DNA from: a virus
Virus record (IMG/VR): IMGVR_UViG_3300017991_000185
Location: 1-42,219 of that record
DNA: 42,219 bases
Reading direction: 5' to 3' (one strand)
Shown piece by piece: positions 1-42,219 of the stretch (the stretch's first letter is position 1; every line of letters starts with the position of its first letter). Under the pieces are notes generated by a model. It made no database searches. It was not told where the DNA came from and was given only the letters and a program-made list of their open reading frames with translations. The position numbers and the translations under genes are program-made.

Positions 1-135
1 CTGGAACATTAAGTCAAGACTCATCTCCAATACCCTCTGGAGGGAATTATTCTCTAAATCCCTGGCAATGACATCGAATAACCCTTGGGCCTGGGCGGTC
101 TTTAATTCCGCTTCCGTTGCTGTCTTGTTCTTGCC
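1..135. repeat. Left copy of imperfect terminal repeat
   Basis: These 135 bases match 42085-42219 in the same orientation with 9 differences, all transitions (at 19, 21, 31, 49, 67, 73, 85, 100 and 124). Eight of the nine fall on third codon positions of the portal gene. Joining the copies restores one uninterrupted portal frame, so this is the overlap of a circular or terminally redundant genome, with allelic differences between the two ends. Confidence 0.92.
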
Positions 136-4737: not shown

Positions 4738-4766
4738 ATTATACCATATATTGATTCGCAAGTCAA
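4738..4766 (-). promoter_or_regulatory. Leftward sigma70-type promoter
   Basis: On the minus strand, TTGACT (4766-4761), a 17-bp spacer and a perfect TATAAT (4743-4738). The start would be near 4731, leaving a leader of about 40 nt before ATG 4692. It is the obvious promoter for the terminase-portal-head-tail direction. Confidence 0.85.
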
Positions 4767-7139: not shown

Positions 7140-7934
7140 CTATTCCAGAACATCCGTAAGCCCGTCAAGGTCGGACTCCAGCCAGTGTGTGTAGATTTTC
7201 TCAGTTGTGCGGATGCTGGAATGGCCCAACAAGCGCGACACTTTACTCACAGGGACACCGTGCTTAACGATAAGCTGCGTGCAGAAAAAGTGTCTAATGG
7301 CGTGAGGCCCGCCTCTTGGAATATGGGCCTTGCGACACAGCCTGGCAATCATATTCTCTATTGATTGCCGGCGGGAATATGCTCTCTTACATTTGAATAG
7401 CGGGTCGGAGCGCAGGATACGACGCACCGTTTGATTGATGGGAACAGCCCGACGTTTTCTGCCCTTGCCGGTTATCACGATATGCCCGTTAATGATTGAC
7501 TGAGGGCCAAGCGAGAGCAATTCGGACACCCTCAAGCCGGTATTGGCAAAAAGCTGAATAATCTGACGCTCGCAAGGTTTTGCAACACTTAACAGCTTAT
7601 GATATTCCTCTTCGGTGAATACCCTCTGGCGCGGTGGGGCTTCTTTGAGCATCTTGATTTTCTCCGCAGGATTTGGAACCTCAAGGACGGCAGAAGCCCA
7701 CCGGCAAAAGGATTTTATCGCGGTAAGCTGAGAATTGGCTGTTCGATTGGAGCAAGAGACCAAAATGGAATCGACGTACGCAAGGATGTGAGCGGGCCTA
7801 ATTTCGGTGAAGTCAGAGGGCACAAACCTGGCAAATCGCGCCAGCGTGGCGGCATAATGCTGCTGAGTACGCGCAGTGTAACGCCTTGCGTGATAGTGGA
7901 ACCTAAGTAGTAGCAACTTCAGTTTGCAAGGCAT
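7140..7934 (-). CDS. int: Tyrosine recombinase (phage integrase)
   Basis: Site-specific recombinase with the full catalytic set. Numbered from the ATG at 7934, these are Arg135 (NTGLRVSELL), Lys157 (ITGKGRKRR), His211 and Arg214 (HAIRHFF), His238 (LLGHSSIRTT) and the Tyr248 nucleophile (IYTHW). The N-terminal SAM-like core-binding domain spans about residues 10-95. At 264 residues it is short, without an obvious arm-binding domain, so XerC/D-like or minimal integrase. A longer frame begins at ATG 7976, but a good promoter lies inside it (7943-7970) with a predicted start at about 7936, so I favour ATG 7934, nearly leaderless. It lies next to a tRNA-Gly half that is a likely attP. Confidence 0.92.
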   Translation of the reverse strand: MPCKLKLLLLRFHYHARRYTARTQQHYAATLARFARFVPSDFTEIRPAHILAYVDSILVSCSNRTANSQLTAIKSFCRWASAVLEVPNPAEKIKMLKEAPPRQRVFTEEEYHKLLSVAKPCERQIIQLFANTGLRVSELLSLGPQSIINGHIVITGKGRKRRAVPINQTVRRILRSDPLFKCKRAYSRRQSIENMIARLCRKAHIPRGGPHAIRHFFCTQLIVKHGVPVSKVSRLLGHSSIRTTEKIYTHWLESDLDGLTDVLE

Positions 7935-7942
7935 TACTGCGA

Positions 7943-7970
7943 ATTCTATCGCCTTGTCGCCTTTTGTCAA
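7943..7970 (-). promoter_or_regulatory. Integrase promoter P1
   Basis: Minus-strand TTGACA (7970-7965), 16-bp spacer, TAGAAT (7948-7943). The predicted start at about 7936 is within 2-3 nt of ATG 7934, implying a leaderless or near-leaderless integrase mRNA. Confidence 0.7.
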
Positions 7971-7980
7971 ACCCATTCTC

Positions 7981-8022
7981 GCGGGCGTAATTCAGTGGTA
8001 GAATGTCAGCTTCCCAAGCTGG
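7981..8022 (+). other. tRNA-Gly(CCC) 5' half, candidate attP core
   Basis: The 42 bases read as a clean tRNA-Gly 5' half: acceptor strand GCGGGCG, D stem ATTC/GAAT around AGTGGTA, anticodon stem TCAGC/GCTGG and loop TTCCCAA with anticodon CCC. After this the sequence has no T arm (no TTCRA loop) and no matching acceptor strand, and instead forms a tight GAAACC/GGTTTC hairpin (8033-8047). A tRNA segment directly beside an integrase gene is the usual signature of an attachment core. That the 5' rather than the 3' half is kept is less common. Confidence 0.68.
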
Positions 8023-8197
8023 TACTCCACCTGAAACCTCCGGTTTCCCACTCCCTGTAATCACAATTCTATCGTTCCGACCCTTCTCTGTCAAGAAAAA
8101 AGTAGGTATGAGTTGCGGGGGGGCATTTGGGTAGCATAGCCGGGTTGTGCCCGGTATGGGGCTCCTTAAAATCGTGGTGGCATCCGCAACTTGGCGG
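8023..8197. other. Non-coding segment after the tRNA half
   Basis: No gene is seen. It contains the hairpin GAAACC-TCC-GGTTTC (8033-8047), the second integrase promoter (8066-8094) and a short CCGGG/CCCGG hairpin near 8140-8154. Confidence 0.5.
8066..8094 (-). promoter_or_regulatory. Second leftward promoter toward integrase
   Basis: Minus-strand TTGACA (8094-8089), 17-bp spacer, TAGAAT (8071-8066). A transcript starting near 8059 would run antisense through the tRNA-Gly half into the integrase and could also serve the longer ATG 7976 start. Confidence 0.7.
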
Positions 8198-13301: not shown

Positions 13302-13734
13302 AAATGCGAGCGTTAATAAAATCCGAGGATGGGGAAAGCGGGAATGCTGGCACGTCAGTCCGACTGGCAACCACGTGCGGCTTGGCAACTACGTGCAGCT
13401 TGGCAACCACGTGCGGCTTGGCAACTACGTGCAGCTTGGCAACCACGTGCGGCTTGGCGACCACGTGCGGCTTGGCGACGGCGTGCAGCTTGGCAACCAC
13501 GTGCGGCTACCGGTGTACGGGTCGGCAACATACCAAATGCACTGGTATGCGCCTGGAATAATTAGAAGTGGGTGTATTGTGAGGCCATGCGGTTGGTGGC
13601 AAGAAAATGTAAGAAGATGCGCGGAAGAGCACGGTTATACGAACCAGCAACAAGATGATTATGCTTTTTACGTAGACCAAATCATTCGGTGGGAAAAACA
13701 GATGGGCAATAGGCTTGGAAAGCGAGGGGCCTGA
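13294..13734 (+). CDS. Hexapeptide-repeat (left-handed beta-helix) protein
   Basis: 146 residues from ATG 13294, with AAGGGA just upstream and overlapping the previous stop. A short N-terminal part (IENASVNKI) leads into eight perfect six-residue units of the form G-N/D-x-V-R/Q-L (about residues 25-72), the pattern of left-handed parallel beta-helix coils as in hexapeptide acyltransferases. A C-terminal Trp/Cys-rich domain follows. There is no catalytic His in an extended loop, so an enzyme is unlikely; a structural, binding or scaffold role is inferred. The unit alternates His-Arg and Tyr-Gln versions. Confidence 0.75.
   Translation: MIENASVNKIRGWGKRECWHVSPTGNHVRLGNYVQLGNHVRLGNYVQLGNHVRLGDHVRLGDGVQLGNHVRLPVYGSATYQMHWYAPGIIRSGCIVRPCGWWQENVRRCAEEHGYTNQQQDDYAFYVDQIIRWEKQMGNRLGKRGA
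13366..13509 (+). repeat. Eight tandem 18-bp units in the beta-helix gene
   Basis: Units of the form GGCAACCACGTGCGGCTT run without interruption from 13366 to 13509. Units 1, 3 and 5 are identical and units 2 and 4 are identical, including silent positions, so a 36-bp two-unit block was duplicated recently. CACGTG recurs in most units. Confidence 0.92.
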
Positions 13735-28125: not shown

Positions 28126-28317
28126 TTATGATAAATAGACGAGTTCCCCGTCGTGGGTCATTATCTCGCCGTTATGGATAGCAAGATAAGTACCCAGTGT
28201 GTCGAAAAATGTCGAACTGTTATGCGAAGCATCGGCGTTGTGTTCCGTCTGGAGCCAGGTATTCAATTCCGTGCCCCACGTCCCGTCGCTTCCGCCTTGT
28301 GATGGTAAATCAGCCAT
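28126..28317 (-). CDS. Small fibre/tail-spike-like protein, 63 aa
   Basis: Begins ADLPSQGGSDGTWGTELNTW, a motif very common in the short head-binding or trimerisation segment of phage fibre proteins (DLP..GG..GTWG.ELN.WL). ATG 28317 has GGAGG upstream and overlaps the previous stop. Likely an adaptor or short fibre. Confidence 0.7.
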   Translation of the reverse strand: MADLPSQGGSDGTWGTELNTWLQTEHNADASHNSSTFFDTLGTYLAIHNGEIMTHDGELVYLS

Positions 28318-29945
28318 TAAATCCTCCCTCCGGGGACCCAGTACAAAACGCCCCGGTTAAATTTGAACCAGCCGCTTGACGAATTGTTTCTGAACCTGAA
28401 GCGTATCCAGTCGGAATGGGTTCTCAAGGACACCTTCTCGCGCGATAGGGTATTTGCGCTTGAAAGGCTTGACGCCGTTGTCCAGTTTGCTCCCTTGTCA
28501 AGGGAATAGTCAACGTCCATCCCGGAGCCGAGCCAGGATACGTCGAGCCTTAGGTTCCACTGCCTTCTGGCAAGGTCGGTGAAATTGAAATCCCTTGTCT
28601 CAAAATAACCATCTATTGCCGTATCGTTGTCATTATATGAATCGAAGTTTGTTTCATATATCACCCCGTCTTTGTCCCCGAAAATGATGGTAGGATTAAG
28701 CCGGAGCGAATATCTGTCATCGAACTGACCCGTATCGGAGTCCATCGTCCCGGACGCGTCGTCAAATGTCTGCCCGCTTTGCTGCTCGTATTTCCCTATG
28801 GCGGTAAGGTAATCACCATAAGAATGGCGAGTCCAGCCCCCGGAGTCATAATGGTAACACCACGCCACATTCGGGTATGTATTATCTCCGTAAGGGACGA
28901 AGAGCCAGTATTCTTTTAGCTCCTTAATAATGGCAGCAAAACATCTATCCATCTGCGCGGGGTTGATATTACTTATCAACTGGTCCTTCACGTTCGTTCC
29001 TATGGACCGGACGTCTAACCCGTCGAATTCATAAACATCATCGGAGCCGAGAAAAAATACTCTATCAGGAAGGGCCTTTACCGTATGTCCCGCAGCACAG
29101 CCCACTCCGTTTACCTTCTGGTCGAAGGCGAAAATATCATTATCCTCGGTGGCGTAACACAGCCAGATACTATTTTCCTTGCATATTACCAAATAATCAG
29201 AAGCGAACTTACACGCACCCTTTATCCAGTCCTCACCGGGAAGGTCGTTATAAGAAGCGTTCCCATTGGTAAAGTCATCGGGAGTGGCCGTATCGGACCA
29301 TCTGGCTCTCTGGGGGTTCCTTGTGCCCGATTCTGTGGTATCCAGTAGGAATAGATGGTTCTTGAACTCAATGACATAACGGGCCTTTACCGATGCCAAA
29401 TCCTCTACCTGGGTATCATCATTGGGCTTGAATACATAAACGTTATCCACCCCATTGGTAAACACAAACCACGGGTTGGATTCGGTGTTCTTACGAATTG
29501 ATGTATAACTCAACAAAACATCATCATTGCCGGAAAAGGTAGAGGCGTCCCCGTAAACCCCCGACCCATAAGCCCCGCCGCCGTAAGAGCCCGCCCCTAT
29601 GCCTCCGTAAATACCGGAGCCGTAAGTGCTATATCCATAAGGGGTACTGGCCTCTACGCTACTGAACAACCTGTCCCATTCCTCGTTTGTGGTATCCCAT
29701 TTATACGCATTGGACGTAGTGATGGCCAGTAGCCAGCCGTTGCCCTGATAGTCTTTGAAATGATGAGTGCCGAGCACCGACCCGGACAATGAATTTCCTT
29801 TGGTTGCATATCCGGTGCGCTTGGCGACATACCCTTCATCCACGTGGATATTCCGGCAGTCGGCCATTTCCAAGTCGCCGATTAAATCGCCGGGGAAATT
29901 GTATCTCAGTCCTTTATAGGGAGCTATTATGGGATGGATGTTCAT
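28317..29945 (-). CDS. Tail tube / tail hub-type structural protein, 542 aa
   Basis: ATG 29945 is preferred because it overlaps the lipoprotein stop (ATGA) and because its first codons are duplicated at the other side of that gene. The N-terminal part (NIHPIIAPYKGLRYNFPGDL and DEGYVAKRTGYATKGNS) is characteristic of podovirus tail proteins that sit below the head-tail adaptor. A Gly/Tyr-rich segment (YGSGIYGGIGAGSYGGGAYG) near residue 120 and a beta-rich remainder are visible. Final assignment needs structural comparison. Confidence 0.75.
   Translation of the reverse strand: MNIHPIIAPYKGLRYNFPGDLIGDLEMADCRNIHVDEGYVAKRTGYATKGNSLSGSVLGTHHFKDYQGNGWLLAITTSNAYKWDTTNEEWDRLFSSVEASTPYGYSTYGSGIYGGIGAGSYGGGAYGSGVYGDASTFSGNDDVLLSYTSIRKNTESNPWFVFTNGVDNVYVFKPNDDTQVEDLASVKARYVIEFKNHLFLLDTTESGTRNPQRARWSDTATPDDFTNGNASYNDLPGEDWIKGACKFASDYLVICKENSIWLCYATEDNDIFAFDQKVNGVGCAAGHTVKALPDRVFFLGSDDVYEFDGLDVRSIGTNVKDQLISNINPAQMDRCFAAIIKELKEYWLFVPYGDNTYPNVAWCYHYDSGGWTRHSYGDYLTAIGKYEQQSGQTFDDASGTMDSDTGQFDDRYSLRLNPTIIFGDKDGVIYETNFDSYNDNDTAIDGYFETRDFNFTDLARRQWNLRLDVSWLGSGMDVDYSLDKGANWTTASSLSSANTLSREKVSLRTHSDWIRFRFRNNSSSGWFKFNRGVLYWVPGGRI
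29918..29945. repeat. 28-bp repeat flanking the lipoprotein gene, copy 1
   Basis: AGGGAGCTATTATGGGATGG continues to 29945. It matches 30359-30386 at 26 of 28 positions and contains the start codon and first codons of the tail tube gene (minus strand). Confidence 0.9.
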
Positions 29946-30343
29946 TTCTTGTCGCACCGGTCCGTGGTCATTCTGAAAGAAGGGGTCAAATATTCACCAC
30001 AGGTTTCATAAGGGAACCACCAGTACCTGTCTTTGTGAGACTCGGTGTAATCAAACCACTTACAGCCCAGATAGAACCCGTAATCACCCACACCCATAGA
30101 AATAAACGGACATACAATCCAGTCCGTGTACCATACATCCTTTGGCTCTGCGCCCTGCCAGGGGTTCCCTTCTCCGGGGATAGGACGGACCATAGGGCCT
30201 TGACGAAGCGCCAGCTTAATATTCCAGCCCTGACAATCGTCGCATCTGTCCTCGCGGTTGACCCATAAGCCGGTCCTATCAGAAGAAACAGTCATCTGAC
30301 AGCCGGCGAGAAAAAGTAGTGATGTAAAAATCAGCTTTCGCGT
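29942..30343 (-). CDS. Inserted lipoprotein gene with apparent ACG start
   Basis: The first ATG is at 30295, but the frame upstream encodes (T)RKLIFTSLLFLAGCQ, a complete lipoprotein signal with lipobox LAGC. The only plausible start for that signal is ACG at 30343, which has AGGA 7 nt upstream, so an original ATG may have changed to ACG or ACG may be used. The exported domain is Cys/Trp-rich (DRCDDCQGWNIKL; WFPYETCGEYLTPSFRM; 117 residues after Met). It is bracketed by 28-bp direct repeats copying the start of the tail gene, so it is an insertion. Confidence 0.65.
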   Translation of the reverse strand, partial: TRKLIFTSLLFLAGCQMTVSSDRTGLWVNREDRCDDCQGWNIKLALRQGPMVRPIPGEGNPWQGAEPKDVWYTDWIVCPFISMGVGDYGFYLGCKWFDYTESHKDRYWWFPYETCGEYLTPSFRMTTDRCDKK

Positions 30344-30358: not shown

Positions 30359-30386
30359 AGGGAGCTATTATGGGATGGGTGTTCAC
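30359..30386. repeat. 28-bp repeat flanking the lipoprotein gene, copy 2
   Basis: Second copy, directly after the fibre gene stop, carrying GTG in place of the ATG of copy 1. Its frame runs 35 codons to a stop across the inserted gene, so it is probably the displaced original start of the tail gene. Confidence 0.88.
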
Positions 30387-31384
30387 TAAGAGCCCAATTC
30401 AACAGCCGATAGAACCCGCGGATACGAACCGCCGTCTTGATATGAAGTACCGCTACTTCCTACGTGTTGCCATTGAACCTTAAATGTATGCGACCCGGAG
30501 GAAAGCCCCGATACAATGTATTGCATATTTACGACGTCGCGGGAAGCGGTACTCCCGTAAGCCAAATATTTTTGGGTGCAATATTGATTGCTGCCGTCAA
30601 CATCAAAGCGCAGCTCGGCCGCGTATTGCAGGTCATCTCTGAATGTTGCGGTGAACGCGAGAAGAACTTTGCCACCTGTGGTTGTGAGTGTCACGGACAT
30701 ATCTGTCATGTCAGCCCACGACCCAGTTGTTTCGGTGATATTTGTTGTCCCAACAGCTTGGCCTGACTGTATGCGGTCATCTACATATTTCTTATTGGCA
30801 ATATCTTTGCTTTCTGTGGGAGCGGTATCGTCTTTCATCTCGCTGTTAGTTGGGAGAATACACACCTGCCCGAACTCCAGCTTGTTACTGGCATTGAGTT
30901 TCAAGAGAGACTTTGCGGTTCCGGTGCTATCTTTGGCAGTCAGATACGAATTATTATTAAGCTGGATATGGTCCTCGTCGATGGTGTCATCGGGGATGTC
31001 ATCGGCCTCAATATTCAACAACGAGTCAGTGCCACCCGACCCGCCCTTGGTGATTTGCTTTATATCTCCATTCTCGTTTTCCCAGAACAACTCAATGGAC
31101 CCGCCCACGTCCTTGCAATAGACCCATCCGGTATCTGAACCACCTGTCGGGTCGGAAGATTGCGGTCGGAAGCGGAACTTCTTGACGCCATAGTTGCCCT
31201 CGTGGGCATCGGTATCCCCGTCGTCCGAAGTGTTCCATCCGTAGAACTGGTCGGCCATCCTCTCGCCGACATCCTCTCTGGCCCATCTTATATGGTCGTC
31301 GGCGGTGGACCTGTCGTCAGTGCCTAGCGGATTGGACTCGTCCCAGGCGTGGGTGAAGTTGTTACCTGAAGCTGGTTCTCCCAT
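30386..31384 (-). CDS. Tail fibre-like protein, 332 aa
   Basis: ATG 31384 has AAGGAGGG upstream. Acidic, beta-rich protein with the modular look of a receptor-binding fibre: N-terminal region with DDRSTADDHIRWAREDVGERM, middle segment SKDIANKKYVDDRIQSGQA typical of phage fibre repeats, and a C-terminal beta domain (MTDMSVTLTTTGGKVLLAF ... GSHTFKVQWQHVG) resembling exported lectin or TNF-like folds. Likely binds the host surface. Stop TAG overlaps the repeat that precedes the inserted lipoprotein gene. Confidence 0.72.
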   Translation of the reverse strand: MGEPASGNNFTHAWDESNPLGTDDRSTADDHIRWAREDVGERMADQFYGWNTSDDGDTDAHEGNYGVKKFRFRPQSSDPTGGSDTGWVYCKDVGGSIELFWENENGDIKQITKGGSGGTDSLLNIEADDIPDDTIDEDHIQLNNNSYLTAKDSTGTAKSLLKLNASNKLEFGQVCILPTNSEMKDDTAPTESKDIANKKYVDDRIQSGQAVGTTNITETTGSWADMTDMSVTLTTTGGKVLLAFTATFRDDLQYAAELRFDVDGSNQYCTQKYLAYGSTASRDVVNMQYIVSGLSSGSHTFKVQWQHVGSSGTSYQDGGSYPRVLSAVELGS

Positions 31385-31554
31385 CGTCCCTCCTTTTTAA
31401 CCGCCTTTGGCGGTATGTTCTTCTCCGCCTCCAAGAGTTTCTCAAGGCGCACGGATAAATGTAAAATCTGATGATAAATTCGGCGTGTCTCTGGAAGCTT
31501 GGGGCTTGCAGAGGAAAGTAACTCACTAACCTTACTGCTCAGTCCAGGTTGCAC
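31324..31554 (-). CDS. Small helical protein, about 76 aa
   Basis: Starts at GTG 31554 (AGGAA upstream) inside the end of the LamG gene and extends 61 nt into the fibre gene. Helical (TRRIYHQILHLSVRLEKLLEAEKN) with basic patches; possibly an adaptor or chaperone for the fibre. It is overlapped on both sides, so the start and reality are not certain. Confidence 0.5.
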   Translation of the reverse strand: MQPGLSSKVSELLSSASPKLPETRRIYHQILHLSVRLEKLLEAEKNIPPKAVKKEGRWENQLQVTTSPTPGTSPIR

Positions 31555-32470
31555 TGTTCCTGCTCTGGCGGCTCCAGGTAGTTGAGGGAGAGGATTGCTG
31601 CGTCCAGGATGTCGTACGAGAATGTTTGGGGTTCCAGAGAGATTGACCTTTACCGCCCTCGACCCAGGTTACGTGGTCGGTGTCATTGATAGTTCCGCTT
31701 AGCTCTGTTTCCGCGCCATTTACTACTGCGTAACCAGTCACGGTAGAGCCCGACCCGTTATCGCATCGCGTGTACCATCCGTTCCATATATCCCTACCAT
31801 AGGCTCTTGAGCCCTCTCCGTTGTTGTAGATTTCCTCAACTTCGTGAGAAGTAAGCAGTCGCTTGTAAAGGCGAATATCATCCATTGCCCCCGTAAAGGA
31901 CGGCACGGGACTGCCAATAATAGCGCCACTACCACCGATATACAGCGTTTGCCCCCCGCTGTTTATCGTTCCTGAAATTTCAGTTATACCTTCGGTAGTA
32001 CAAAGGCTTGCGTTGGAATAAATGCAGGCATTCCCGTCTCTGTCCAAGGTTATTGTTATATGCTGCCACTCCCCGGTCGGCGACGGCCCTGTTATCCAAC
32101 TGCTATTGACTCCATCACCCAAAAGAACACGAAGCCCTTCGTGCCAACTTGACGCAGTAACCCGATAGCCGTTTGCGGTTGCCTTTGTTGTATCCAATAA
32201 GACTTCACTGGTAGCGTCGGATATAATCGCCCAAAAGCAAACGGAGAAATCCCCGTCCTCCGGCACAAGGGCCGCGTCACTTGTAACCGAGCAATACCCA
32301 CCCCCATCAAAATCCAAATAGTAATAACTCATACAATTAGGGTCCTCTAACCCCCAGTCCTCGACGAGTAGTGCCAAATCCTCAAAGTCAACTCTACAAT
32401 CGCCATTGATGTCAGACCTAAGCCCCCCGAAGCACACCGAACACAACAACAAGGCAATTAAAGTTCTCAT
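31532..32470 (-). CDS. Secreted LamG-domain protein with dockerin-like calcium loop
   Basis: ATG 32470 has AAGGAG 7 nt upstream. Order of parts: signal peptide (MRTLIALLLCSVCFG, residues 1-16), a dockerin/EF-hand-type loop DINGDCRVDFEDLALLVEDW (about 20-39), a LamG/concanavalin-like domain (about 60-230; SGTINSGGQTLYIGG, FTGAMDDIRLYKRLL, EVEEIYNNG), and a C-terminal W-T/S-x-Q repeat tail (about 285-312). The dockerin loop followed by LamG is a hallmark of exported planctomycete proteins. It has its own promoter just upstream. A surface-binding role on host or virion is inferred. Confidence 0.78.
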   Translation of the reverse strand: MRTLIALLLCSVCFGGLRSDINGDCRVDFEDLALLVEDWGLEDPNCMSYYYLDFDGGGYCSVTSDAALVPEDGDFSVCFWAIISDATSEVLLDTTKATANGYRVTASSWHEGLRVLLGDGVNSSWITGPSPTGEWQHITITLDRDGNACIYSNASLCTTEGITEISGTINSGGQTLYIGGSGAIIGSPVPSFTGAMDDIRLYKRLLTSHEVEEIYNNGEGSRAYGRDIWNGWYTRCDNGSGSTVTGYAVVNGAETELSGTINDTDHVTWVEGGKGQSLWNPKHSRTTSWTQQSSPSTTWSRQSRNSATWTEQ

Positions 32471-32492
32471 GGCATTCTCCTTTCTCACTGTA

Positions 32493-32520
32493 TTCTATCT
32501 CACTGTCGGCAAATGTCAAG
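32493..32520 (-). promoter_or_regulatory. Promoter of the LamG/dockerin gene
   Basis: Minus-strand TTGACA (32520-32515), 16-bp spacer, TAGAAT (32498-32493). The start is near 32486, 16 nt before ATG 32470, leaving just enough room for AAGGAG. It has the same -35, spacer length and -10 as the integrase promoter at 7943-7970, so the gene may be expressed with the prophage functions. Confidence 0.75.
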
Positions 32521-32526
32521 CGAAAA

Positions 32527-33249
32527 TTATGAATAATGGGCATCTTCGTCGTTCATCCACCGCGTCAGCGAGTTTACTCGCGTGGCCCCCGCGCCCATAG
32601 ATGAACCGGGGGCGGGAGCCATCCCCTCCTCCAGAGAGCCGAATTTCTGCGTATTATCAGCTTGTATCATTGCCTGGAGCATTCCAACCCCGTCGTTGAG
32701 CCATACTCGGTACTTCTCGTGGTCGTGGTCGTACCTGAAGCCGTAGGCGGTGGCTATTAGCTCCACCACTTCCGGGTGATTGTCTATTAAATCGTTAGTA
32801 TCGGAATCGCCGGACAAATCGTCCAGATAGCCGTAATACTCAAAATTGATAGTCCAGGCGGTGTCGTCGTTATCCGAATGGCCCGGTTCGGGGTATAAAT
32901 GAATCTGGCCGTCCTGAATGGCGTAATGCCGGGGCTCGCCGGGGTCGTCTGTGTCTCTATATCGCCACTTGTTCTCAATGTCCTGTTTGTGGGCCTTGGT
33001 CAAGGGGACCCGATAATCGTCGGAATCTATAAGTTCGCAGTTTATCTCCGACTTGAAATCGTCAGGAAGAGCATAACTTCTCTGCCCATCCACCGTAGAG
33101 GAAGTGCATTCCGTCTCCATAAAGCTGAAATTATGGGCACGGCAGATAAACCTCTGGGCGTCGTTTATCCAGCGGTTCAACTGGGTATCCGTCAGGTCGT
33201 CCCTGTCCAGGTTCTCTTCGACTCTGGTTCTTATATCAGATAAGCTCAT
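32527..33249 (-). CDS. Head-tail adaptor (connector) protein, 240 aa
   Basis: The N-terminal half follows the layout of phage head-completion adaptors: LSDIRTRVEENLDRDDLTDTQ, LNRWINDAQRFICRAHNFSF, then a beta segment RSYALPDDFKSEINCELID. It is of the gp6/P22 gp4 adaptor style, encoded near tail genes. It overlaps the upstream basic small gene as ATGA. As family knowledge these proteins form a ring below the portal. Confidence 0.78.
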   Translation of the reverse strand: MSLSDIRTRVEENLDRDDLTDTQLNRWINDAQRFICRAHNFSFMETECTSSTVDGQRSYALPDDFKSEINCELIDSDDYRVPLTKAHKQDIENKWRYRDTDDPGEPRHYAIQDGQIHLYPEPGHSDNDDTAWTINFEYYGYLDDLSGDSDTNDLIDNHPEVVELIATAYGFRYDHDHEKYRVWLNDGVGMLQAMIQADNTQKFGSLEEGMAPAPGSSMGAGATRVNSLTRWMNDEDAHYS

Positions 33250-33356: not shown

Positions 33357-34940
33357 TTATTCCTCTATTGTCTTGGTCTGGTAGTCATATCGTGCGCGAT
33401 AGTAATCGCCTCCCAAACTAAGTGTTTCTATTGCCCTGATTTCGATTCTGCCACCCCACGACCAGACCATTCCAGCGGCGGGGTCTGTGCCTCCGTCGAA
33501 GCCGTCCAAGTCATTAAATACGTATGACTTGTCACTTTCATAGTAGATGCTATCGCAGGGGCCCGTTCCCATCAACTTTATCCAGACATCAGCAAAGCTC
33601 GGCTCTATTGCAATCTCGGAATATCCGTGTTGATGACCTGTGCTCGGCGTAACAGTTGTTTGCCAATCTGGAGGAAATCTCCACGCTGGAACGTCACTGG
33701 TCGGCTCCTCTTTCCATTCCGGGCCGTAACATTTGTCAACATCCGTATCGGCCTCAAAAGCAACAGCCACAGAAATATCATAGCCTTGCTTGTTCCACTG
33801 CTGAGCAACCCACATATAAGGCTCTGCGGCATCGCGAGTCCCTTCGTCCGCTGCTGCGTCCCAATCAACGAAACCATCATAATAAAAATAAATCTCCCCG
33901 CCTGTATATAAACGCCTCAAAGGGTTCGCGCCAGAGCCCCAAATGTCACCCTTATCGACGCCGTTAACAAACAGATTCGGCCCATCTTCGTATTGATTCC
34001 CCACCCCCAAATCTGCCGCAAGGTACGTAAATGGCGCATTCGCCGCCGGGTCGGTATGCGCCCACCCCCCGGTTCCCAGCTTTGCGCCACCATCAGCGCA
34101 ACTGCTTAGATAAAAACTGATATTTGTATTATTACTCGACAGTTGCTGCACAGTCGAATCTAACGAGTTGTCCTCGCCCTGCGCGAAGCCTGCGGCATTA
34201 AACTTTGCCCCAAATTGCGTGTAATAATCCTCACCAATTGTTATTAAATCGTGCCCCTGCGCAGTATTGGCAGAGCGGGTCGTGGAAGGGTCGCCTGACG
34301 AACCGGAATTAAATGTGCGTATGCCTATAATCCTCGCTGTGCCAGCGGCATCATTGTGTGTTACTCGGAACTTCTTGGAACCATCAGCGACTGCGTCGCT
34401 AAAGCAGGTCGTGACGGTTACATTGGTTGCTGTCCCGCTATCATATGTGCCCGTGGAGCCATCAAAACTGTATTGCAAATTAGCCCCATTACCCCCACTT
34501 ACATCATACGTGATGAGCTGTATGATGTTGTGTCCTGCCGGGACTGTAATCTCAGCATAATCGTTCTGCGCGCTAGTCATCCGATACAGCCAGCATCCGG
34601 CCGAACTATCCGCCCAACTGCCGCCCGCATTTTCCGACCAATCAGCAGCCCCATATGGCGTAAATGTTTCGCCTTCACGCACCCTGCCGTAAAAAACCTC
34701 TCTGATATATATATAACTATCTGTGTTGGCTTGGTCCGGGTGCGAATTGGTTAGTGTCCACCGCGACCAATAATCACCATCCGCATCGGCCGGAACGTAG
34801 ATGTACCACGTGTACAAATTAAAAGCATCACGCACAATCACCGGGTCGGGTGTTGCAGCAAAAGCAGCCGCCGCATACAAGGCAGTCTGGGCGAAGCACG
34901 CACTCGCCACCAATAACGCCAAGATTATTCCTCGTCGCAT
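33357..34940 (-). CDS. Large secreted beta-rich protein, 527 aa
   Basis: ATG 34940 has AAAGGAAAG upstream. A cleavable signal peptide covers about residues 1-28 (GIILALLVASACFAQTALYA, then AAAFAA). The rest is long and beta-rich with many Asp, Tyr and Trp, reminiscent of exported carbohydrate-binding or adhesive proteins (TWYIYVPADADGDYWSRW; LGTGGWAHTDPAANAPF). No catalytic motif is recognised. It is encoded amid virion genes, which is unusual for a signal-peptide protein; it may modify the virion or the host surface. Confidence 0.7.
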   Translation of the reverse strand: MRRGIILALLVASACFAQTALYAAAAFAATPDPVIVRDAFNLYTWYIYVPADADGDYWSRWTLTNSHPDQANTDSYIYIREVFYGRVREGETFTPYGAADWSENAGGSWADSSAGCWLYRMTSAQNDYAEITVPAGHNIIQLITYDVSGGNGANLQYSFDGSTGTYDSGTATNVTVTTCFSDAVADGSKKFRVTHNDAAGTARIIGIRTFNSGSSGDPSTTRSANTAQGHDLITIGEDYYTQFGAKFNAAGFAQGEDNSLDSTVQQLSSNNTNISFYLSSCADGGAKLGTGGWAHTDPAANAPFTYLAADLGVGNQYEDGPNLFVNGVDKGDIWGSGANPLRRLYTGGEIYFYYDGFVDWDAAADEGTRDAAEPYMWVAQQWNKQGYDISVAVAFEADTDVDKCYGPEWKEEPTSDVPAWRFPPDWQTTVTPSTGHQHGYSEIAIEPSFADVWIKLMGTGPCDSIYYESDKSYVFNDLDGFDGGTDPAAGMVWSWGGRIEIRAIETLSLGGDYYRARYDYQTKTIEE

Positions 34941-35056
34941 TTTCTTTCCTTTATAAATGCGTCCAGCTCAAGCTCGTCAACACCCAGCGCTTCGGCCATT
35001 TTGATGGCATCGGCAAGAGCTTGAAGGTCTAAATCACATACATTAGTACCAGGCAT
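34925..35056 (-). CDS. Small acidic protein, 43 aa
   Basis: ATG 35056 to TAA at 34925-34927. Compact amphipathic peptide (LDLQALADAIKMAEALGVDE; FIKERKCDEE). It overlaps the upstream gene by 14 nt and the downstream one by 16 nt. The ribosome site is weak, so moderate confidence. Confidence 0.5.
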   Translation of the reverse strand: MPGTNVCDLDLQALADAIKMAEALGVDELELDAFIKERKCDEE

Positions 35057-35630
35057 ACCAGACACTCACATTGCCCGCCTCGGTCCCGGTGGAGCCGTCG
35101 GCGCCCCAGACATACACATAAACATATCTATAGCCCATCAGGTCGAAGCACAGTTTGGCCACCGAGCCTTTATCGTCACTGTTCTCCGCGCCCACAGAAG
35201 TAGGCCATTCGTCCGTAACGGATAAAGTATCCGCCCAGAACTTGCCCGTCCCGCTTGAGCCGTCGGGGTAAGTAACTACATCCTGTGAGCCTAAAGTAGC
35301 AGTTCCGTAACATACGACCGTTGCGGGGCCGCCGTGCCGCCACGCCATAACCATAAAGGAAAAGGAATCATTTGCGGCGTCCCCTCCGGCAAAAATCAAC
35401 TCGACGGCATTTGCGTTGGTTCGGCCCTTGCCGGAAAATATATCAACAGCTCCTGACGCCATATTGGAAAAGGCGCCGCCGTTACCGTCAAGGTCGATGC
35501 ACGCCTCAAGGTCCCCACCATCCTCGTTGGCCGCGGCCCTCAATTCCTGATATCGAACTTCAGGCGTCTCAAGAACAGCCCCCAGAATGAAACAGGCACT
35601 AATTGCTAACAGAAAAAGAAGTTTTTTCAT
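35043..35630 (-). CDS. Secreted protein with signal peptide, 195 aa
   Basis: ATG 35630 is chosen because GAGG lies 8 nt upstream and a signal peptide begins there (MKKLLFLLAISACFILGAV); a longer frame would bury it. The mature part is beta-rich with Asp/Gly loops (EACIDLDGNGGAFSNM; FWADTLSVTDEWPTS; YRYVYVYVWGADGS). No family recognised. It is the first of three consecutive signal-peptide proteins in this direction and overlaps the FkbM gene end by 32 nt. Confidence 0.7.
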   Translation of the reverse strand: MKKLLFLLAISACFILGAVLETPEVRYQELRAAANEDGGDLEACIDLDGNGGAFSNMASGAVDIFSGKGRTNANAVELIFAGGDAANDSFSFMVMAWRHGGPATVVCYGTATLGSQDVVTYPDGSSGTGKFWADTLSVTDEWPTSVGAENSDDKGSVAKLCFDLMGYRYVYVYVWGADGSTGTEAGNVSVWYAWY

Positions 35631-36369
35631 AATCCATCCTCGGCCAGGCCTGAAATAGAACACGATTATTGTATTTGTAGTTAAAGAAAAGATGTGGAAA
35701 TTTGCGCCGCGTATTGCGCCAGAAATATGTCCAGTCGAATATATCGCCCGTTAGATATTTGCGCGCATCGCAATGGTATTCTCCGAGCATCAAACGAAAC
35801 TTTCGCGCGCTTTCGTCGGACATATTTTCAAAAGAATCGACTTCCCCCCCTTCGCAATCCCACTTCACTAAATCGACTATTGGTATGTCTTTGGTCAATT
35901 CTTCGATGGTGATTACAGGAACTTCGTCTTTTTCGATTTGAGTGTAAGACCACGTTCTGTGCCCGGTTGCTATATACATACGAGCCCGTTCGGGACTCAC
36001 AACCAAATGCCCTCCGGTCGTGCGCGAGGCGTGCAACAGGCATCCATTCTTATACCCAACCGCGGCGTTTATAACCCTGCCGTCCATCTTGTTGGATTTA
36101 AGGTTCATCTCATAAAGCCGGGCAGACTCTTCACAGGGCTCCACCGCCACTAAACGGGCGTTAGGCCAGAACGATTTGGCGAAGACCCCAAAGCTCCCTA
36201 TGTGGCCACCGATATCCAGAATAGTCTCAGGCTGTACGCACCGGCTTAATTCTTCAAGTGCGTAACTGTCCGAGGAAATGACCTCGTTGAGAACCTTGTA
36301 GTCCTGAAATCCGTTCCGCACCCGTATATTGAACCGGAAACCGTGATGGTCAATCTGGGTTATGTCCAT
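35599..36369 (-). CDS. FkbM-family methyltransferase
   Basis: 256 residues. The SAM-binding motif ILDIGGHIGSFG (about residues 50-61) is followed by VAVEP near 74 and the FkbM-type late segment VDLVKWDCEGGEVDSFENM, typical of O-methyltransferases that act on sugars or natural products. ATG 36369 overlaps the end of the glycosyltransferase fusion by 10 nt, so the two are co-translated. Likely methylates a sugar added by the fusion enzyme; the acceptor is unknown. Confidence 0.87.
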   Translation of the reverse strand: MDITQIDHHGFRFNIRVRNGFQDYKVLNEVISSDSYALEELSRCVQPETILDIGGHIGSFGVFAKSFWPNARLVAVEPCEESARLYEMNLKSNKMDGRVINAAVGYKNGCLLHASRTTGGHLVVSPERARMYIATGHRTWSYTQIEKDEVPVITIEELTKDIPIVDLVKWDCEGGEVDSFENMSDESARKFRLMLGEYHCDARKYLTGDIFDWTYFWRNTRRKFPHLFFNYKYNNRVLFQAWPRMDYEKTSFSVSN

Positions 36370-38672
36370 TGCGAAACAGCCACCCCCTTCTCTTCCGTGA
36401 AGTCTTTAGTGCCCGTTACGTCGTCAAGAAATTCTCTTACCTCCGCGCTAAAATCACTACTTGATAATTTATCCTCCATTCTCCCGGAGCCGCCCGCCCA
36501 ATGCAGGACCCGCACTTTCCGACCGTTACATTCCAATCCGTCCGGGGTCACTTTCAGGTCTTTCCAGTACTTTCGTGACTGTTCGTTGTAGTAAACATCC
36601 TTCTTATCCACCGTCTTCAATCTGTACCTGCTGGAATGGGCCAGTTCATTGAAATAAACCTGGTTGGAGGGGCCGGAATCCGGCTGGTACATTCGGTCGG
36701 TCCACTCTCTGCAAAATTGCGAACTGGTAATCGCCGAAACACCGGCATTCAAAAACTCATCAGAGCCAATATTCAAGGAACCGGCCACGTCATAATTGGC
36801 ATCGAGAAATTCCGTTAGCCTTCCGCAGGTAACAGTGTCCGCATCGAGGTAAATCACACCATCGTAATCCCGAAGCAGATACTCACACAGTCGAGGCCTG
36901 ATGGCAAAAGACGGACTCGCGCACGCGGAAACTTTTTCTTCTCCGAGAATCTGTTTCTCATTGCGCGGGTCAAACGTATAAAACGGAATGTCAGGATGAA
37001 ACTTCTCAAAGGACCTCTGGGCCCGCTTTGCCAGCCTGTAAGTTATAGGGCTATCCGCAATGGTCATCGCAGCAAATCGCAACTTGTTACGTTCCACCGC
37101 TCGGTTGAATTCCCACTCGTTGTATCTGCGACTAATCTCCTGCAAGACGCGCTCCGGCTTGATGTTTTCCATACACTTCGGAGCAACTCCGGCAATAGTT
37201 CCTTTCGGACAAGCAGATTTGGTATAAATCAGCCGATGGCACGGATAGCATTCGCAATCTTCGGCCCATAACGCCGTGCAGTTCTTCCAGTACTTACACA
37301 AATTCTCAATAGAATTGGTGCTCAGAAAGACTATCTGCGGGGTCTCCCAGCACGAAGCAGCGTTGGCCAGGCCGCTATCGGCACTTATCACCAGGTCAGC
37401 ATATTTTGCCATCAAAAATGACTGCCGAACGGTCCAAACACCCGATTTGTTGGTGGTAATGGGATTTTGCCATTCGAGAATCTTGCACGCACCGTCGCCG
37501 ACCGTAATAATCTCCACATTCTTGGGGTGCTTCATTGCCAGCTCGTTGGCTACATATTCCGACCACGGATATACTTTGTGGTAAGCCGAACCCGCAAGCC
37601 CCCAGAGAATAGTAAACTTGTCCTGATGAGAGGCCAAAAAGTCCTGTGCAAGCGATTCTTCAAGTTCCGAAAAGTGCATTGTGGGCAATGCGCCTTTTAT
37701 CTCAGGATAACCGGCCATCTCCATTGTCCGGTCCTGAAAATTAACATTGCACTCGACGTGACGCTTTTCGTGCGGCCAGTTGAACTCGTCGGAGCCCTCG
37801 CATTTCAATAACGCGCCTTCGACCGATTTAGTCAAATTCAGAACCTTCTCAAAGCCCTGGGAAATAAATTCCCAATAAGTATCAAGCTGTTCATATTCAA
37901 TTGCAGTGGCTTTTTCCTGGACAATAAATTCATCTACATTCGGGTCTTCCTTCAGAACTTGCGCGCTATACTCATCGCAATTAACAACAACGTAATATCC
38001 ATCCTTCTTCAATTGTGAAAGAACGGGCGTCAACCAGAGGCTGTCTCCCAAAGCGCCGTATCGAATGACCAACGCCTCTTTATTGGTCTTTTTCTGCCTG
38101 GGGAAACTTAACCTTCCTTCAGACTTTCGGGGGACCAATATCTCAAAAGGCTTCTTGAGAATTGATGCTTTTTTCTGAACGACTAATTGCCACGAATATT
38201 CATTGGAATCGCCGTGCTTGCTTGCAGAGACAAGTTTCGCGTTGCCGAAGCCCTTTATGATTTTCCACGCTTGCTTCCAGCTTATATCTTTTCGCCGGGC
38301 ATCCGCAGCGCCCGGAGTGCCTATTCGCGGGTAAAAGTCCGGGTCCTGTTCATAAAGGATTAAATGCCCGCCGTAACGAATAACCCGCCACCATTCCTTC
38401 AGGGCGGCTTCCGTGCAAACATAGTTCCCCAGTTGGTGCGCATCAAAAACGTAATCAAAATAATCCGATGAAAAAACCCGAAGCGCATCATTCGCGGTCA
38501 AGTCAACGGGAATGTCCACAGGCCGCCAATGCGGGGGGCCGACCCCAATAGCTGATTCAACAATCTTTTCGTTCTTGCAGCTTAAATCGAGGCCGAGACC
38601 CCGGCAATATGACAGAACTCGGTAACGACACTTCCGAGCTTCATAGCCCTCAGCGAACTGCGGGTTCCACAT
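36360..38672 (-). CDS. Trimodular methyltransferase / GT9 / GT-A glycosyltransferase
   Basis: 770 residues, with AAAGGAG before ATG 38672. Residues 1-170 are a class I methyltransferase-like module (GLGLDLSC; ALRVFSSDYFDYVFDAH; EWWRVIRYGGHLILYE). Residues about 199-515 are a GT9-type (heptosyltransferase-like) GT-B enzyme: LVIRYGALGDSLWLTPVLSQ, ILWGLAGSAYHKVYPWSEY and LVISADSGLANAA. Residues about 525-745 are a GT-A nucleotide-sugar transferase with the DxD motif IYLDADTV (about 610) and VLHWAGG. It lies between the capsid and tail genes, so modification of virion or host-surface glycan is inferred. The first motif is degenerate, so the first module may be inactive. Confidence 0.82.
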   Translation of the reverse strand: MWNPQFAEGYEARKCRYRVLSYCRGLGLDLSCKNEKIVESAIGVGPPHWRPVDIPVDLTANDALRVFSSDYFDYVFDAHQLGNYVCTEAALKEWWRVIRYGGHLILYEQDPDFYPRIGTPGAADARRKDISWKQAWKIIKGFGNAKLVSASKHGDSNEYSWQLVVQKKASILKKPFEILVPRKSEGRLSFPRQKKTNKEALVIRYGALGDSLWLTPVLSQLKKDGYYVVVNCDEYSAQVLKEDPNVDEFIVQEKATAIEYEQLDTYWEFISQGFEKVLNLTKSVEGALLKCEGSDEFNWPHEKRHVECNVNFQDRTMEMAGYPEIKGALPTMHFSELEESLAQDFLASHQDKFTILWGLAGSAYHKVYPWSEYVANELAMKHPKNVEIITVGDGACKILEWQNPITTNKSGVWTVRQSFLMAKYADLVISADSGLANAASCWETPQIVFLSTNSIENLCKYWKNCTALWAEDCECYPCHRLIYTKSACPKGTIAGVAPKCMENIKPERVLQEISRRYNEWEFNRAVERNKLRFAAMTIADSPITYRLAKRAQRSFEKFHPDIPFYTFDPRNEKQILGEEKVSACASPSFAIRPRLCEYLLRDYDGVIYLDADTVTCGRLTEFLDANYDVAGSLNIGSDEFLNAGVSAITSSQFCREWTDRMYQPDSGPSNQVYFNELAHSSRYRLKTVDKKDVYYNEQSRKYWKDLKVTPDGLECNGRKVRVLHWAGGSGRMEDKLSSSDFSAEVREFLDDVTGTKDFTEEKGVAVSQWT

Positions 38673-41739: not shown

Positions 41740-42219
41740 TTAAGTCCTCATTTGTGCTAAAACCTGATTCTTCTGGGACGGGCTCATTTCAGAAACCATA
41801 TTCTTGGCGTCCTCGGCGGCTTTCTTTTGTATCATCTGGGCGTGTTCCATAGTGGGCTTTTGAGGCTGTTCGGTGTAAGCTTCACTCAATCCCCTTAAAT
41901 CAAGATACTTCTGCCACAAAGACTTCAAATCGGTCTGCTGGCGCAATTCGGGGACCTTGACGGCGAAAGTGACCGCCTCGATGACATTTCTGACCTGTTC
42001 TCTCTGCGCAAGAAGCAAAGACAAGCCCCCTACTCGTAATTTCAACCGGCCCTTAAGCTCCTGATATTGAGCTAGCGGTCCGTACTGGAACATTAAGTCA
42101 AGGCCCATCTCCAACACCCTCTGGAGGGAATTGTTCTCTAAATCCCTGGCGATGACGTCGAATAACCCCTGGGCCTGGGCGGTTTTTAATTCCGCTTCCG
42201 TTGCTGTTTTGTTCTTGCC
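41740..42219 (-). CDS. Portal protein, C-terminal part (runs off right edge)
   Basis: The open frame enters at the right edge and ends at 41740. Its first 45 codons duplicate the last 45 codons of the left-edge portal fragment, with one amino-acid difference (Gly here, Ser there, in LEM-G/S-LDLMF). The unique C-terminal part is a helical tail of about 115 residues (LSLLLAQREQVRNVIEAVTF), with a Gln/Met-rich end. Joined with the left fragment it makes one portal of about 550 residues. Confidence 0.85.
   Translation of the reverse strand, partial: GKNKTATEAELKTAQAQGLFDVIARDLENNSLQRVLEMGLDLMFQYGPLAQYQELKGRLKLRVGGLSLLLAQREQVRNVIEAVTFAVKVPELRQQTDLKSLWQKYLDLRGLSEAYTEQPQKPTMEHAQMIQKKAAEDAKNMVSEMSPSQKNQVLAQMRT
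42085..42219. repeat. Right copy of imperfect terminal repeat
   Basis: Matches 1-135 with 9 transitions (93% identity). Marks the overlap that closes the genome; the portal gene is read through it. Confidence 0.92.

Follow-up and report, generated by a model that had tools for sequence, protein, structure and literature searches.

Morons, as defined in PMC6469090, are extra genes with a promoter of their own that lie in the late operon of a temperate phage. The gene that we describe here, on a viral DNA of 42,219 nt (IMG/VR record IMGVR_UViG_3300017991_000185, the whole of which we call the window), is likewise an extra gene in such a setting, although its own promoter is only predicted and no terminator was seen. 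In LUZ24-like podoviruses the same slot of the genome holds tail spike and tail fiber genes (tf_63 and tf_58 of Pseudomonas phage tf); a signal-like N-terminus and a promoter of its own set the window gene apart from these. On the planctomycete side, a cohesin-dockerin planctosome involving peptidases has been proposed in another planctomycete family (PMC6461901), so some use of cohesin-dockerin pairing in the phylum is possible. The planctosome concerns secreted planctomycete dockerin proteins, whereas the phage protein has only one half of a dockerin and lacks a cohesin. The main text of PMC11266412, on the class Phycisphaerae, contains neither dockerin nor phage, and in the literature that we searched, which was not exhaustive, we found no description of phages of Phycisphaerae or of a phage-encoded dockerin-LamG protein. 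What might such a protein do for a phage?

The gene occupies positions 31532 to 32470 on the minus strand and encodes a 312-aa F-hand/LamG protein with a signal-like N-terminus. The open reading frame given in an earlier note on this DNA is present from 31532, but its upstream GTG start (318 aa) gives way to the ATG at 32470, which has the Shine-Dalgarno sequence AAGGAG (32477 to 32482, minus strand) 6 nt 5' of it. The frame is intact, and its G+C content is phage-like (0.507 versus 0.508). Residues 1 to 19 (32414 to 32470) resemble a signal peptide and are a hydrophobicity outlier. The N-terminus MRTLIALLLCSVCFGG has a mean Kyte-Doolittle value of 2.97 over 11 residues, and the signal-like hydrophobic stretch of the first 16 residues places the protein second when 59 genes of the window are ranked by N-terminal hydrophobicity; seven genes reach 2.57 or higher, and the rest, set clearly apart, stay at 1.74 or lower. 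The same N-terminus aligns with those of Phycisphaerae secreted proteins and of a phage homologue (L178, below). Signal-like N-termini were also seen in two other genes of the virion operon, at 33357 to 34940 (527 aa) and 35043 to 35630 (195 aa), both on the minus strand; the 527-aa protein had no relatives in phages or in 150 genomes of the class.

Residues 20 to 39 (DINGDCRVDFEDLALLVEDW; 32354 to 32413) form a single dockerin-type F-hand calcium loop plus helix that matches a Planctomycetota signature. By sequence, DINGDCRVDFED satisfies the calcium-loop pattern D-x-N-x-D-x-x-V-D-x-x-D, and calcium binding is predicted. A type I dockerin has two repeats of about 22 residues; we found no second F-hand repeat in the protein, including after the LamG domain, and no match to Pfam Dockerin_1 (PF00404) at an E value of ≤1. 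The phage loop therefore corresponds to one F-hand, half of a complete dockerin. Residues 56 to 211 (31838 to 32305) form a LamG, or concanavalin A-like, domain that matches Laminin_G_3 (PF13385) with an E value of 2.7e-19 (70.3 bits against a cut-off of 27.6). The earlier note had described a dockerin-like calcium loop followed by LamG, and this observation holds: the LamG domain by profile search, the loop by its sequence pattern. Structure prediction bore out LamG as well: AlphaFold2, with 16 to 17 aligned sequences, gave a jelly roll at residues 51 to 220 (block pLDDT of 61 to 92), and the calcium loop was low-confidence in the same model. Foldseek matched pentraxins and the LG domains of agrin, as well as a large number of LamG-like proteins from viruses. 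Matches to a clostridial neurotoxin receptor-binding domain (Pfam E value of 3.5e-4, below the cut-off, and similar PDB matches) reflect the shared jelly roll only, and nothing points to a toxin function.

The remainder of the protein is its own. A C-terminal beta module (residues 229 to 273; 31652 to 31786) is common to the L178 homologue and partly to a second one, L226, and was modeled more confidently by AlphaFold2 once these two were aligned. It is followed by a tail of three repeats of about 10 residues (TSWTQQ, TTWSRQ, and ATWTEQ; residues 283 to 312; 31535 to 31624) with pLDDT values below 50. No relatives of this tail were found, and the C-terminal region gave weak matches at most against phages and 101 class genomes. 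A phage-repeat origin of these TW-type repeats was rejected, because a pattern scan of viral contigs gave five matches, none of them in the reading frame of anything but a very short open reading frame.

The closest cellular counterparts are in planctomycetes. The F-hand/LamG protein had matches in 13 of 13 sampled planctomycete genomes, on LamG or the loop separately, and two Planctomycetota proteins, L026 (VGXU01000098.1, at least 1374 aa) and L074 (DSDR01000129.1, at least 691 aa), begin at their N-termini with the same succession of signal peptide, D[h]NGDCRVD F-hand loop, and LamG. BLASTP aligned the phage protein with L074 at 26% identity over 244 aa (E value of 2e-12) and with L026 over the N-terminal 54 aa at 41%. 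In both cellular proteins LamG is followed by another F-hand and by long additional regions. Neither is present in the phage protein, which ends about 100 aa past LamG with a different C-terminus and tail. When an alignment of the two phage proteins (A3) was searched against 397 class genomes, with at most five candidates scored per genome, its matches at E values of ≤1e-13 were confined to the LamG regions of larger frames.

Phage relatives were also found. A 290-aa full-length homologue at 985 to 1857 of viral contig L178 (IMGVR_UViG_3300047196_000100) is 32% identical over 282 aa and has the same full architecture and a similar length, but its loop reads NGDG, not NGDC, and it lacks the repeat tail. 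It adjoins terL and DUF1353 genes and starts 10 nt past its upstream gene, with no promoter of its own apparent. A looser, 431-aa homologue (L226, 4802 to 6097) has a signal peptide, a dockerin, and a weak LamG match. It shares a similar C-terminal motif (DEGSGTTVTD) with the window protein and differs in having two F-hands (Dockerin_1 E value of 1.7e-7, above the cut-off) and an extra middle region. This gene lies in a siphovirus-like tail region beside minor tail and tape-measure genes and overlaps its upstream neighbor, again with no promoter of its own apparent. Since L178 and L226 differ from the window in terminase or gene order, this type of gene recurs in different phages, and L178, as an unrelated phage with a full-length homologue, shows that the architecture is maintained. 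A tblastn search of the window protein against the phage collection gave no match, nor did single-sequence scans of viral contigs for the adaptor and head-closure genes. The strict loop pattern occurred in no viral contig; this absence is not evidence of uniqueness, because a looser pattern matched at least 119 stretches in viral contigs, and L178 and L226 are among the matches listed. In one viral contig (L200, 1 to 11418), a gene starting LEPRILLSA continues into a dockerin loop and then a region resembling a protease, in the manner of a planctomycete secreted protein.

The earlier note had taken the protein as planctomycete in style and as a clue to the host, and two independent tests agreed. 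In a scan of 84,980 genomes for D[h]NGDC[RS]VD, which gave at least 118 stretches, 108 of the 118 genome stretches among the matches listed belonged to Planctomycetota by record title. The loop of a Phycisphaerales genome (L068, DLNGDCRVDFEDLAILAEQW) is identical to the phage loop at 16 of 20 positions. The other test concerns a 41-nt stretch at 7981 to 8021 (plus strand), which is identical to the 5' part of a Phycisphaerae tRNA-Gly(CCC) gene, ends just past the anticodon arm, and is seen by Rfam as a weak tRNA. These 41 nt match the tRNA-Gly(CCC) 5' end exactly in more than 12 genomes of the class (that of G006), and 152 of 298 class genomes carry them with at most two mismatches; an Isosphaeraceae genome differs by one mismatch, and ten genomes outside Planctomycetota, one of them unassigned, had no match. 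Together, the loop signature and the tRNA stretch are strong evidence for a Phycisphaerae host. They fall short of proof at the class level because the control set was small and tRNA genes are conserved (that of Escherichia coli for tRNA-Gly is 87.5% identical to the 41 nt), and the class name of the sampled genomes comes from record titles. Homologues of the major capsid protein (MCP) were present in 3 of 298 class genomes, and no head-closure protein was found in a search of 298 class genomes. In one genome with an MCP homologue (L142), a GT9-like gene lies about 1.4 kb downstream, and such a gene likewise lies near the MCP gene in L003 and in the window. Between the capsid and adaptor genes of the window (35599 to 38672, minus strand) are an FkbM methyltransferase gene and a gene whose 770-aa product combines methyltransferase, GT9-like, and GT8-like regions.

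The phage is temperate, on the evidence of a tyrosine integrase gene at 7140 to 7934 on the minus strand (PF00589, E value of 7.8e-24; start read as the ATG at 7934). The 41-nt stretch lies alongside it, between two exact promoter matches upstream of the integrase on the minus strand, TTGACA-16-TAGAAT at 7943 to 7970 and TTGACA-17-TAGAAT at 8066 to 8094; the simplest reading is that it is probably the attP core. A divergent pair of TTGACT-17-TATAAT promoters at 4766 (minus) and 4859 (plus) is possibly an early/lysogeny switch, and an 18-bp tandem repeat in eight copies (13365 to 13508, plus strand) encodes a repeated GNHVRLGNYVQL protein segment. No exact-match end repeats were found in the window. 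Its two ends (1 to 135 and 42085 to 42219) share a 135-nt overlap that contains 9 mismatches, and a portal-like gene is split between them (open reading frames 1 to 1305 and 41740 to 42219), so the genome is probably complete.

The F-hand/LamG gene has a predicted sigma-70-type promoter of its own, TTGACA-16-TAGAAT at 32492 to 32519 (minus strand), an exact match located 21 nt 5' of the start codon inside the gap of about 56 to 57 nt that follows the adaptor gene. Transcription would be expected to start at about 32484 to 32486. The promoter is of the same design as the first of the two integrase promoters, as the earlier note had said. Across the window, TTGACA-15..19-TANAAT occurs at three sites versus 0.06 expected, the other two being those upstream of the integrase; none of 100 shuffles reached three, and no site with exactly one mismatch was found in the window. 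The match is therefore far above chance. The virion-operon setting was confirmed too: upstream is an SU10-type head-tail adaptor (32527 to 33249, minus strand; PF24175, E value of 4.2e-30), and downstream are a virion structural/head-closure protein (28317 to 29957, minus strand; phrog_3287, E value of 5e-52; phrog_578, E value of 4e-10) and an ejection protein. The immediate downstream neighbor, 147 nt away, encodes a tail-fiber-like protein (30386 to 31384, minus strand; phrog_26630, a weak match with an E value of 9e-4). Morons frequently, though not universally, have a terminator of their own. Between the F-hand/LamG gene and the downstream tail genes (31385 to 31531) we found no intrinsic (U-tract) terminator, so the promoter would also transcribe those genes. 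In a distant relative (L003, MCP 45%), the next structural gene follows an adaptor-like gene after 1 to 2 nt, with none between; its match to the window head-closure gene (E value of 0.003) did not establish the two as the same gene. In phages tf and VS-ABTNL-3, by contrast, tail genes fill this interval.

Taken together, these data make a moron-like cargo gene, encoding an exported lectin and carried by a temperate, podovirus-like phage of Phycisphaerae, the most likely explanation, and we give a roughly 58% probability to an exported lectin that modifies the surface of the infected cell. Its export, transcription in the lysogen, residence at the surface, ligand, and benefit are what we infer. 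The protein would be transcribed in the lysogen from its own integrase-type promoter and carried out by the host Sec pathway as a calcium loop plus LamG lectin, resembling the N-terminus of the host's giant secreted proteins. It would stay at the surface of the infected or lysogenic cell and bind glycans or envelope components, and the outcome may be altered adhesion or a masked phage receptor (superinfection exclusion). Export is favored because a signal-like N-terminus is present in all three phage proteins and agrees with those of cell-secreted proteins. The claim of cargo on a promoter of integrase design gained support, as did its retention, since the architecture is kept in the unrelated L178 phage. 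Against it stand the non-canonical signal-peptide cleavage site, the lack of a downstream terminator, the occupation of the slot by tail spikes or fibers in LUZ24-like podoviruses, and the tight packing of the L178 and L226 homologues among virion genes. The further suggestion that the protein captures host partners through dockerin-cohesin pairing found no support: such capture is unlikely because the protein has just the one F-hand and few genomes of the class encode a cohesin (12 of 61 sampled genomes, versus 45 of 61 with dockerins).

Alternatively, LamG could bind the host surface from the particle, as part of a virion receptor-binding or tail-fiber protein whose hydrophobic N-terminus anchors or folds in the tail. 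In both Pseudomonas phage tf and Vibrio phage VS-ABTNL-3, the interval between adaptor and head-closure genes is taken up by tail spike or tail fiber genes; the L178 and L226 copies also lie amid virion genes, and viral proteins often contain LamG (BFVD gave 453 matches at an E value of ≤0.001, and cyanophage structural proteins are further examples). We consider this less likely than export, though next in probability: a signal-like N-terminus followed by a calcium loop, as in cell-secreted proteins, is kept in L178, a separate tail-fiber-like gene (the weak match above) lies directly downstream, and the gene has a promoter of integrase type. The slot is a place for variable genes that interact with surfaces, and by itself it decides neither for exported cargo nor for a virion protein. 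Less likely still, the protein could be a late lytic factor that is exported and attacks the envelope or exopolymer as infection ends, with most of it made from transcripts that read through the virion operon. The position inside the late operon, the two further signal-like genes upstream there (195 and 527 aa), and the homologues without an apparent promoter would fit; Pfam found no enzyme or lysis domain, and the separate strong promoter would be left unexplained. The architecture of host proteins, minus the second F-hand and the long remainder, could also mean that a fragment of a host gene was captured recently and has no function, but this is made very improbable by the homologue along the full length in unrelated L178 (32% identity), together with the intact frame, Shine-Dalgarno sequence, promoter, and phage-like G+C content.

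The genome offers a testable host link through its probable tRNA-Gly(CCC) attachment site and host-type secreted protein, and it points to one specific gene by which a prophage might modify the cell surface. More tentatively, and rather doubtfully at present, phages of Phycisphaerae may repeatedly carry exported half-dockerin lectins that enter the calcium-loop surface-protein system of the host and re-label the surface from inside, so that, for example, other phages would be excluded or attachment changed. Dockerin-like loops are abundant in the class and cohesins scarce, which makes the role of the loop a question in its own right, and the small phage version, with its single loop and single lectin domain, offers an uncomplicated setting for asking what the loop does.
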